NCBI GenBank assembly: GCA_016873715.1
Contig: VGWF01000026.1
Coordinates: forward strand, 1 to 41,525
Length of the DNA stretch: 41,525 nucleotides
Reading direction: 5' to 3'
Origin: Lentisphaerota bacterium
Lineage (GTDB): Bacteria; Verrucomicrobiota; Kiritimatiellia; PWTM01
The position numbers were made by a program, and so were the translations under genes. Shown piece by piece: positions 8,577 through 12,795 of this stretch. The notes under the pieces were generated by a model, which was not told the origin of the DNA, did no database searches, and worked only from the letters and a program-made list of their open reading frames with translations. Each line of letters starts with the position of its first letter. The first letter of the stretch is position 1.

Positions 8577-8605
8577 TTGACACGGCGGGCGGGCGCGATT
8601 AGGGT
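8577..8605 (+). promoter_or_regulatory. Promoter of the leucine leader and leuA operon
   Basis: A perfect TTGACA (8577-8582) is followed after 17 bases by TAGGGT (8600-8605), a three-of-six -10 match. The predicted start near 8612 is only about three bases before the leader-peptide ATG (8615), so the leader would be read almost leaderless. Position upstream of a complete attenuator supports the call. Confidence 0.6.
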
Positions 8606-8614
8606 CTTCGCGAC

Positions 8615-8710
8615 ATGAATTCCATCGCGACTCGCGTGACGCTTCGGGGGCTGCTTCTGCGGCTTCTCGGCCTTGCGCCGTTCACGGTGGGGCCGGTCGA
8701 AGGGGCGTAA
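8615..8710 (+). CDS. Leucine-rich leader peptide of the leuA attenuator
   Basis: This 31-codon frame, ATG to TAA, encodes a short peptide with seven leucines between residues 10 and 20 (LRGLLLRLLGL). Four of the seven leucine codons are CTT, which is scarce in the surrounding GC-rich genes where CTG and CTC dominate. That would make translation of the leader sensitive to charged tRNA-Leu. It lies between a promoter and a strong terminator upstream of 2-isopropylmalate synthase, the layout of classical leucine attenuation. It has no other recognisable function and no Shine-Dalgarno sequence, being nearly at the predicted transcript start. Confidence 0.75.
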   Translation: MNSIATRVTLRGLLLRLLGLAPFTVGPVEGA

Positions 8711-8767
8711 GCCCTCCGAGTACCGGATCAGGTGAAGGAACCCACCGCACGACGCGGTGGGTTTTTT
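8685..8767 (+). terminator. Transcription attenuator (antiterminator/terminator) of the leuA operon
   Basis: The terminator is AACCCACCGC (8739-8748) pairing with GCGGTGGGTT (8754-8763) around ACGAC, with six T bases at 8762-8767. Its 5' arm can instead pair with CGGTGGG at 8685-8691 (with CCCACCG 8741-8747), forming an antiterminator. A second hairpin nests inside that loop: CCGGT 8693-8697 with ACCGG 8722-8726, plus GGGC-GTAA-GCCC over the leader stop codon. A weaker stem, CGTGA (8635-8639) with TCACG (8682-8686), could hold the antiterminator arm when the leader is not translated. A ribosome stalled on the Leu codons would free 8685-8691 and let transcription continue; a ribosome reaching the stop codon would cover it and allow termination. 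Confidence 0.8.
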
Positions 8768-8835
8768 GTTGTACGGAAGGGTCGGTTGGGCAAGAGTCGC
8801 CGGCTGGCCGGCGAATGGAGAGGCAGGATAGCGCG

Positions 8836-10445
<1,610 letters not shown>

Positions 10446-10449
<4 letters not shown>

Positions 10450-11324
10450 CCGGAGCGACCGCCACGCCGTTCGTGCCGGACGGGAGGACCCGCGCCTACG
10501 CGGTGATCGGGCACCCGATCGGTCACACGCTGTCGCCCGCGATGCACAACGCCGCGTTCCGGGTCCTCGGCCGGAACGCGGTGTACCTCGCGTACGACAT
10601 CGAGCCCGACCGCGTCCTCGAGTGCCTCCGCGCGATGGCGGCGATGGGCTTCGGCGGCGTCAACGTGACGGTGCCGCACAAGGAGACCGTCTTCCGCGGT
10701 CTCGACCGGCTCGACGACAGCGCGCGCCGCGTCGGCGCGGTGAACACCGTCCAGTTCACGCCGGAGGGGCTCGTCGGGCACAGCACCGACGCGGAGGGCT
10801 TCCTGCGCGCGATGCGGGAAGCGTTCGGCCGCGGACCGCAGGGCCTCGAGGTGTTCGTCCTCGGCGCGGGCGGGGCGGGCCGGACGGTCGCCCTCGAATG
10901 CGCCCGCGCGGGCGCGGCATCGGTGACCGTCAGCGACGTCGACGCGGCACGCGCGGAGCGGCTTGCGGCGGAACTCGGGTCGGCCTCGCCCGGCGCGCGG
11001 GCGAAGGCGGTGGCCGCGGCGGAGGCCCGGGCCTCCGCCGCCGCGTGCGGGCTCGTCGTGCAGGCGACGCCGGTCGGCATGAAGGCCGGAGACGTCTCGC
11101 CGCTGCCCTCCGAGGCTTTCGGCGCGGGTGCGCTGGCCTTCGACCTCGTCTACGGCGTGCCCGAGACGCCCTTCATGCGCGCGGCCCGGGCGGGCGGCGC
11201 GAGGGCGTCGAACGGGCTCGGGATGCTGCTGCACCAGGGCGCGCGGTCGTTCGAGATCTGGACCGGCGTGACGCCGCCGGTGGACGTCATGCGCGCGGTG
11301 CTCGAGAAGGCGGTCTACGGATGA
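10446..11324 (+). CDS. aroE: Shikimate dehydrogenase
   Basis: This 292-residue protein reduces 3-dehydroshikimate to shikimate with NADPH. Substrate-binding motifs are HPIGHTLSPAMHN near 23-35, NVTVPHK with the catalytic Lys79, VGAVNT near 96-101, and STDAEGF with Asp115. The nucleotide-binding loop is VLGAGGAGR, and the C-terminal GLGMLLHQG is typical. GTG 10446 is the start: it overlaps the leuA stop as GTGA, and no ATG lies between the leuA end and the conserved domain. The gene forms part of a tight operon with leuA, pilD and aroK. It is a shikimate-pathway enzyme placed under what looks like leucine control. Confidence 0.95.
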
Positions 11325-12163
11325 ACTGGGAGCTGCTGCCCCGCGAGTTCCTCGCGTTCGTCGCGTTCACGTTCGGGGCCTGCATCGGCAGCTTCCTCAA
11401 CGTGTGCATCTGGAGGCTCCCGCGCGAGGAGTCGGTCGTGAGCCCCGGCTCGCACTGCCCGAAGTGCAACACGCCGATCGCGTGGTACGACAACATCCCG
11501 CTGGCGAGCTGGCTGGCGCTGGGCGCGAAGTGCCGCGCCTGCCGCGCCCCGATCTCGCCGCGCTACGTGCTGGTCGAGGCGCTGGTGGGGGTGCTCTTCG
11601 CGTGGGTTGCGTGGCGCTACGGGTGGGACGTCCGCACGCCGGTCTACTGCGTCGCGATGACCGGGCTCGTGCTCGCGACCTTCATCGATCTCGACGAGAT
11701 GTACATCCCCGACCGCGTCTCGCTCGGCGGCATCGCGCTCGGCCTGGTGCTGGGCCCGCTCCTCCCGTCCCTGCACGACGCGACGACGGCGTGGGGCGGC
11801 CTGCGCGCGGCGGGCATCGGCGCGCTGGTCGGCGCCGGCAGCCTGGGCGCCATCGCGTGGATCGGGACGAAGATGTTCGGCAAGGAGGCGATGGGCATGG
11901 GCGACGTGAAGCTCATGGGCGCCATCGGCGCGTTCCTCGGCTGGACCGGCGTCGCCTTCACCTTCTTCGTGTCGGCCTTCTCCGGCGCGGCGGTGGGCCT
12001 GACCATGATCGCCCTTCGCCGGAAGGAGATGCAGAGCGCGATCCCCTTCGGCCCCTACCTCGCGCTCGGCGCCGCGATCTGGATGCTGGGCGGAAACGAC
12101 CTCTGGGATCTCTACATCCGATTCATGGCCGGCCGCCTGCGCGCCCCGGGGTTCGACGGATGA
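11321..12163 (+). CDS. pilD: Prepilin peptidase / N-methyltransferase
   Basis: This 280-residue integral membrane enzyme is of the type IV prepilin peptidase family (GspO/PilD), which removes leader peptides from pilins and pseudopilins and methylates the new N-terminus. The N-terminal domain keeps the four zinc cysteines Cys46, Cys49, Cys71 and Cys74 (CPKC, CRAC) required in the bifunctional form. The aspartate protease residues are Asp123 in FIDLD and Asp195 in GMGDVK. About seven or eight membrane helices are visible. ATG 11321 overlaps the aroE stop (ATGA). No pilin or secretion gene is in the window, so its substrates are elsewhere. Confidence 0.93.
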   Translation: MNWELLPREFLAFVAFTFGACIGSFLNVCIWRLPREESVVSPGSHCPKCNTPIAWYDNIPLASWLALGAKCRACRAPISPRYVLVEALVGVLFAWVAWRYGWDVRTPVYCVAMTGLVLATFIDLDEMYIPDRVSLGGIALGLVLGPLLPSLHDATTAWGGLRAAGIGALVGAGSLGAIAWIGTKMFGKEAMGMGDVKLMGAIGAFLGWTGVAFTFFVSAFSGAAVGLTMIALRRKEMQSAIPFGPYLALGAAIWMLGGNDLWDLYIRFMAGRLRAPGFDG

Positions 12164-12795
12164 CGGGGCCGGACGCCAACCTCGTGCTCGTCGGCTTCAT
12201 GGGCACGGGCAAGTCGGCCGTCGGCCGGCGGGCGGCGCGCGCGCTCGGGCGCGAGCTGGTGGACATGGACGCCGTGATCGAGGCGCGCGAGGGCCGCCCG
12301 ATCCCCGAGATCTTCCGCGACAGCGGCGAGCCGCAGTTCCGCGCGCTGGAGCGGGCGCTGGTCGGCGAGCTGGCCGCGCGGCGCAACCTCGTGATCTCCT
12401 GCGGCGGCGGGATCGTGCTCAACCCGGACAACGTCGCGGACTTCGCCCGCACCGGCGTCGTCGTCTGCCTCACCGCGTCGCCGGAGGTCATCCTGCGGCG
12501 CGTCGCGCACGACACGAACCGCCCGCTGCTCCAGGCGCCGGACCGCGAGGCGCGCGTGCGCGAGCTGCTCGCGAAGCGGCAGCCGCTCTACGACGCCATC
12601 CCGGACCGCGTCGATTCGTCCGGCCTGACGATCGGCCAGGCCGTCGGCGCCGTGCTCGAGCTCTTCCGCGCGCGCGCCGGGTCGGCCGCGCCGGCGCCGG
12701 GGGACGCCGCGGATGGCGGGGTGCCGCGGGTATCCGTCGAACGGCCGGGCGGGCCGCCCGCGCCGCCTCCGCCGTCCGGGGTGCAGGGGGCCTGA
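12160..12795 (+). CDS. aroK: Shikimate kinase
   Basis: This 211-residue protein phosphorylates shikimate with ATP. The Walker A loop GFMGTGKS is at about 12-19, followed by VDMDAVIEAREG (shikimate-binding Asp), FRALE, SCGGGIVLN and the lid segment NRPLL. The core ends near residue 175; about 35 further residues are Ala/Pro-rich with a run of prolines and look disordered, which makes it longer than most shikimate kinases (about 170-180). ATG 12160 overlaps the pilD stop. Together with aroE it gives two consecutive-but-one shikimate steps in the operon. Confidence 0.93.
   Translation: MTGPDANLVLVGFMGTGKSAVGRRAARALGRELVDMDAVIEAREGRPIPEIFRDSGEPQFRALERALVGELAARRNLVISCGGGIVLNPDNVADFARTGVVVCLTASPEVILRRVAHDTNRPLLQAPDREARVRELLAKRQPLYDAIPDRVDSSGLTIGQAVGAVLELFRARAGSAAPAPGDAADGGVPRVSVERPGGPPAPPPPSGVQGA

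Follow-up and report, generated by a model that had tools for sequence, protein, structure and literature searches.

A predicted leucine attenuator with a probably leaderless leader peptide upstream of leuA in a Lentisphaerota bacterium and its relatives

The stretch of DNA analysed here (the window, 41,525 nt or 41.5 kb, from a source genome of 5.13 Mb in 289 contigs) carries, directly upstream of leuA, what we read with a probability of roughly 92% as a ribosome-mediated transcription attenuator that controls leuA and, probably, the closely packed genes downstream of it. A preliminary description of this DNA had proposed a leucine attenuator of the ribosome-stalling kind, and that proposal is supported by the anatomy of the region, by its conservation in relatives, by compensatory change and by folding with the ribosome at different positions. 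The defining features that can be tested in sequence, namely a Leu-rich open reading frame (ORF), a terminator and a competing antiterminator arm, are all present; the dependence on ribosome position comes from folding predictions.

The leader region and its predicted folding

All features of the window described below lie on the forward strand. The promoter (8577–8605) is composed of a −35 element, TTGACA, at 8577–8582, where the preliminary description had placed it, a 17-nt spacer and a −10 element, TAGGGT, at 8600–8605. It was assigned from the sequence, and its spacing to the leader start is kept class-wide. The −10 element is weak, with only three consensus bases retained (T, A and the last T). 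The leuL-like leader ORF (8615–8710) is 31 codons in length; it starts with ATG at 8615, which is located 9 nt past the −10 element and has no Shine-Dalgarno sequence, and it ends with TAA at 8708–8710. The encoded leader peptide is MNSIATRVTLRGLLLRLLGLAPFTVGPVEGA. The sensor codons (8642–8674) comprise seven Leu codons within 11 positions; they start at 8642, 8651, 8654, 8657, 8663, 8666 and 8672, and read CTT, CTG, CTT, CTG, CTT, CTC and CTT, respectively. Among ORFs of 8–60 codons on both strands of the window, the leader is the sole case in which a stretch of 11 codons includes at least six Leu. Of all Leu codons that the longer window ORFs contain, 5.6% are CTT, and the chance of finding at least four among seven is low (p = 3e-4). 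The earlier account of this leader, with 31 codons, seven Leu in 11 and four CTT that are uncommon nearby, is thus borne out by the sequence.

The intrinsic terminator (8739–8767) was identified by folding and by a scan of the window. It consists of a hairpin (3:4), whose stem AACCCACCGC/GCGGTGGGTT spans 8739–8763, and a run of six T at 8762–8767. Folded alone, the terminator has an energy of −19.8 kcal/mol (z = −4.5), which was matched by none of 200 shuffles; the z-score for folding of the whole leader is −2.95. It is the only terminator scoring 22 or more on either strand of the window. Strict consensus scans called neither a promoter nor a terminator at the leader locus, because of the weak −10 element and because part of the T-run belongs to the stem.

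Region 3 (CCCACCG, 8741–8747) is the 5′ arm of the terminator and the predicted partner of region 2 (CGGTGGG, 8685–8691), the antiterminator arm, which lies within the leader ORF and codes for part of TVG. Region 1 (8668–8680) is the partner that is predicted, from minimum free energy and pairing probabilities, to hide region 2 in a 1:2 hairpin when there is no stall at Leu. Both the strong terminator with six T and the competing antiterminator had been claimed before; the former was confirmed at 8739–8767, and the latter was found at exactly the position given, complementary to region 3 and covarying in relatives.

The gene behind the leader (8836–10449) encodes 2-isopropylmalate synthase, as both NF002086 (E = 1.1e-223) and TIGR00973 match it over their curated cut-offs. 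Its start codon, ATG at 8836, is preceded by GGAGAGGCAGGA. The GTG start of aroE (shikimate dehydrogenase, 10446–11324) overlaps the leuA stop (GTGA), so aroE is probably under the same switch as leuA. The end of aroE is in turn overlapped by a gene for an A24 prepilin peptidase (11321–12163), and this one by aroK (shikimate kinase, 12160–12795). Because leuA, aroE, the prepilin peptidase gene and aroK overlap end to end (10446–12795), the shikimate genes are probably governed by the leucine switch as well.

In the mechanism that we propose, the first transcribed base would be that of the ATG at 8615 or lie a few nucleotides ahead of it. A ribosome would load on the nearly leaderless 5′ end and translate the leader. 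When leucyl-tRNA is scarce, the ribosome would stall in the Leu run (8642–8674) and cover region 1; region 2 (8685–8691) would then pair with region 3 (8741–8747), no terminator would form and leuA would be transcribed. When leucine is plentiful, the ribosome would reach the stop codon and leave, and region 1 would recapture region 2. With region 2 hidden, the 3:4 hairpin and the T-run would terminate transcription at about 8767.

Folding of the nascent RNA (3′ end at 8749–8755) was performed with the ribosome represented by a mask of ∼30 nt. With no ribosome, or with the ribosome at the stop codon, region 2 is paired upstream with a probability of ∼0.95. When Leu 8663 or Leu 8666 occupies the A site, the antiterminator (regions 2:3) has a probability of 0.82–0.98, and with Leu 8657 in the A site it has a probability of 0.96 once the RNA reaches 8755. 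No benefit for antitermination was predicted from a stall at the earliest Leu codons (8642 and 8651) or at the last one (8672). Folding with the leader constrained, which the preliminary description had suggested as a check, therefore predicts antitermination for stalling within the Leu run only.

In full-length equilibrium folding, the terminator is favoured at every ribosome position and the states are not distinguishable. The decision must therefore be kinetic and dependent on co-transcriptional timing, a dependence that is common to all such attenuators. Region 2 sits within the ORF, 23 nt before the leader stop; therefore, a terminating ribosome may leave region 2 uncovered, and it is the 1:2 hairpin that must hide it.

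Predicted attenuators and codon choice in relatives

The DNA upstream of leuA was sampled for 91 genes from the class and for 39 from other classes in the phylum, the latter serving as negative control. An attenuator was called when an ORF of 8–60 codons containing four or more Leu in a stretch of 11 was followed by a terminator no more than 130 nt downstream. By this rule, attenuators are present in at least 45 of the 91 leuA regions of the class, covering 19 of 36 families, and about half of the class regions have none. In the window's own family, all six readable leuA regions carry one; it is also present at L002 and L006. The 39 regions from the other classes gave one weak match only (L115, weak terminator), which was set aside by hand, as were L089 and L101 (not of the phylum, and with weak terminators) and the duplicates L036 and L164. 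At L010, L015 and L017, a Leu-rich ORF of leaderless type is found with no terminator accepted by the rule.

A Leu-rich ORF and a terminator were also seen before leuA outside the class, at L031, L054, L079 and L103 (Pedosphaera and Planctomycetota) and at L066 and L096 (Syntrophaceae and Ghiorsea). Owing to these out-of-class genes, the distribution of leucine attenuators may be wider than so far described.

The leader peptides diverge widely, as exemplified by that of the window compared with MKTMSIWMLTLLALCGDTRSTAGDGCCVG and MNFISTLLLGLFLLLCEG; the features that are kept are the Leu codons and, following them, the arm. Apart from the arms, the sequence varies too much to be aligned in a trustworthy way. 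Covariation was assessed by a swap test, in which the best ungapped complement of the terminator 5′ arm in the segment from the Leu run to the terminator was compared with that obtained using the arms of other families. Over 43 attenuators, the fit of the own arm is 9.72, compared to 8.08 for other-family arms (p = 5e-7); averaged by family, the difference is positive in 15 of 17 families (p = 2.5e-4). The arm types CCCACCG, GCCCGCC, TCCCGCC, CTCCGCGG, CCTCCGCGG and GGCTCCGC are each matched within their own leader. Like that of the window, region 2 of most attenuators lies within the ORF, 19–25 nt before the leader stop; in members of family f18 (e.g. L020, L023, L156 and L157) it is located past the stop. 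Leu codons and antiterminator pairing, the two features whose conservation the preliminary description had singled out for checking, are both conserved in relatives, with compensatory changes.

Folding with the masked ribosome was extended to the same number of attenuators (43, with L143 and L200 left out by hand). The mean probability that the terminator arm is held off is 0.63 for a stall at Leu, 0.38 for the ribosome at the stop and 0.43 for no ribosome; the difference between Leu and stop is significant (p = 4e-6; family-averaged, p = 0.02). In some relatives (L005 and L168), the ribosome-free state is predicted to be antiterminated already.

In ilv-leu operons that begin with ilvB, there is no leader at leuA; an Ile/Leu/Val-rich leader of the same attenuator design precedes ilvB instead (L228, MSNKTSIARLKGAGLSVAGLLVVLRPAVGEPPG; L229, MNKLYTNIIINLLNLVLTVVNGLVLVVSIDVDGKEAGSK; L230, MRKTVSITALEATVVLVPLVVLGLVRPVGAPIGRRSRD). 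The sensor codons thus track the content of the operon, which we consider the strongest single argument for amino-acid sensing. Upstream of hisG, no candidate His leader was found ahead of a terminator in ∼27 relatives, and the 28 trpE regions examined have no general Trp leader. One trpE region (L280, genome G016, reverse strand) is an exception: ∼290 nt upstream of trpE it holds MKRTVCITVARWLWRGDSPERLAA, a Trp leader candidate of leaderless type; a promoter, TTGACG...TATCTT, ends 8 nt before its ATG, and a hairpin with TTTTGTTT follows. It is the only case with a leaderless-type promoter among the 28.

The choice of Leu codons is distinctive across the class. In the 21 attenuators with readable leuA, CTT makes up 34% of the Leu codons of the leaders, compared to 2.9% of those of leuA (odds ratio 17, p = 1e-24), whereas the share of CTG is 59% in leuA and 20% in the leaders. 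The genome has one tRNA-Leu gene each with the anticodons GAG, CAG, TAG, CAA and TAA, among 43 tRNAs found. According to the decoding rules, tRNA-Leu(GAG) reads both CTT and CTC. As this single tRNA probably also serves CTC, CTT is probably a rare codon of a busy tRNA that is shared with the common CTC, rather than a codon with a rare tRNA of its own. The term "rare CTT codons" in the preliminary description is therefore right for codon usage, and is so class-wide, but not for the tRNA. In theory, a busy, scarce isoacceptor is the first to lose its charge (PMC1183508); in the leu leader of Salmonella, replacement of the rare CUA by CUG reduced the sensitivity (PMC1183508).

Leader start and alternative readings

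In 35 of the 45 attenuators, the −10 element of the best promoter is located 6–10 nt before the start codon; based on this spacing, the leader is probably translated leaderless, from the first bases of the messenger, both here and in most relatives that carry the switch. The strict pattern TTGAC-N17-19-TANNNT-N5-10 precedes 24 of the 45 leader starts, compared to a single one among 826 further start codons of that DNA. The earlier suggestion of a nearly leaderless start agrees with this spacing and its conservation. Its qualification as unusual for an attenuator has to be dropped, since it is probably the usual form in the class and has been reported in Streptomyces lividans and Sinorhizobium meliloti. 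A transcript start downstream of 8615 had been named as evidence against the switch; judged from sequence, the promoter-to-start spacing is conserved in the class.

The leaderless-type promoter pattern is over-represented in this genome, with 17 matches compared to three for a reversed-pattern control, and most relatives also have an excess; leaderless mRNAs look common in this genome. In the own genome, the pattern ends directly at the starts of ordinary genes (L211–L227), two of which (L218 and L221) we take, by eye, to be of CopG type and antitoxin-like.

One alternative is compatible with the attenuator reading: the attenuator is genuine but has an ordinary 5′ untranslated region, either because the real promoter is located further upstream or because the true start codon is internal. 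The weak −10 element of the window would fit this, and so would family f29 (L193, L196, L207 and L208), in which the best promoter is 26–32 nt upstream of the start and the Leu codons directly follow the start. The f29 leaders are nearly identical (MNTNLLLNxLLLLALTxRGAxLLV), contain up to eight CTT codons and probably represent a leadered version within the class. However, the 6–10 nt spacing, the strict pattern at leader starts and the genome-wide excess all argue for the leaderless form, and we consider an ordinary 5′ untranslated region unlikely.

Far less probable is that the leader controls the translation of leuA and not its transcription, like the actinobacterial LEU element, in which the Leu run pairs with the leuA Shine-Dalgarno sequence. 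The Leu-rich and probably leaderless ORF before leuA has counterparts in Actinobacteria (PMC1262725; PMC8079986), and eight bases of the Leu run in the window are able to pair near the leuA Shine-Dalgarno sequence. However, when scored across families, the pairing of the Leu run with its own Shine-Dalgarno sequence (7.28) is no better than with those of other families (7.11, p = 0.78). Moreover, descriptions of the LEU element show a pseudoknot and no terminator, whereas a strong terminator and a covarying antiterminator are conserved here. With no pairing signal and a terminator present, the LEU element was rejected.

Least probable of all is a translation-independent terminator switch (a riboswitch, a T-box or a protein-bound leader) next to an incidental Leu-rich ORF: the conserved terminator/antiterminator pair alone would be compatible with it, but the Leu content is kept though the peptide sequence varies, and shifts to Ile/Leu/Val before ilvB, the promoter stands at a fixed distance from the leader starts, folding predicts antitermination from the Leu stall and not from the absence of a ribosome, and neither the window nor any of 15 related loci gives a hit to an Rfam leader or riboswitch family at gathering score, the best sub-threshold hits being unrelated sRNAs.

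Beyond the single locus, we tentatively suggest a wider picture, which we hold somewhat less probable than its opposite. In this class, which is probably Kiritimatiellia, branched-chain attenuation may routinely use leaderless leader peptides with the antiterminator arm inside the coding sequence; such leaders may have originated independently of those of Actinobacteria and Alphaproteobacteria, may shift from leuA to ilvB or back, their sensor codons changing accordingly, and selection for CTT, a codon that is otherwise avoided, may tune them.

Comparison with known systems

In the open-access literature, we found no description of an attenuator for Verrucomicrobiota or their relatives among the PVC bacteria, although surveys in subscription journals may hold one; within that literature, the earlier statement that none was known for this lineage stands. 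A survey of 2010 noted leader-peptide systems as known in Proteobacteria and Actinobacteria only, and then added Firmicutes (PMC2965389). With the attenuator described here, the known range of ribosome-mediated attenuation gains a phylum. Within the class, probably leaderless forms of the switch occur naturally beside forms with a leader, a collection that is useful for the study of RNA polymerase-ribosome coordination without a 5′ untranslated region. The repeated choice of CTT allows the selective-charging explanation of attenuator codons to be tested independently (PMC1183508).

Like leuL of Escherichia coli and Salmonella, the attenuator contains a Leu-rich leader peptide, the 1:2, 2:3 and 3:4 pairings and an intrinsic terminator; it also shares the use of a rare Leu codon, which is CUA there (PMC1183508) and CTT here. 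Different from enterobacterial leuL, it is probably leaderless, has its region 2 in the ORF (∼23 nt ahead of the stop codon) and stands before a leuA gene whose downstream neighbour is aroE. The enterobacterial leu leader is led by a Shine-Dalgarno sequence and stands before leuABCD. Sequence kinship between the two is not shown, as no Rfam leader family matches.

In Streptomyces lividans, leaderless leader peptides precede leuA (LeuL1), leuS (LeuL2), trpE and other genes (PMC8079986). Translation of the leucine leader begins at the RNA 5′ end there, as it probably does in our case, and LeuL2 is followed by a hairpin and a U-run (PMC8079986); LeuL1, which stands before leuA, has no typical terminator, and the phylum is different. 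The actinobacterial LEU element shares an ORF with a run of Leu codons before leuA (PMC1262725), but it is a pseudoknot with a stem between the Leu run and the Shine-Dalgarno sequence and has no terminator; that stem is unsupported here. In Sinorhizobium meliloti trpL, the attenuator RNA starts at the AUG of the leader peptide (PMC7298713), as is probable for ours, but the amino acid is tryptophan and the host belongs to the Alphaproteobacteria. Taken together, it is well supported that the attenuator upstream of leuA is of a known kind, leaderless leaders included, and that it is new for this lineage, in a probably leaderless design with the arm inside the ORF that is common in the class and carries a clear codon signature.
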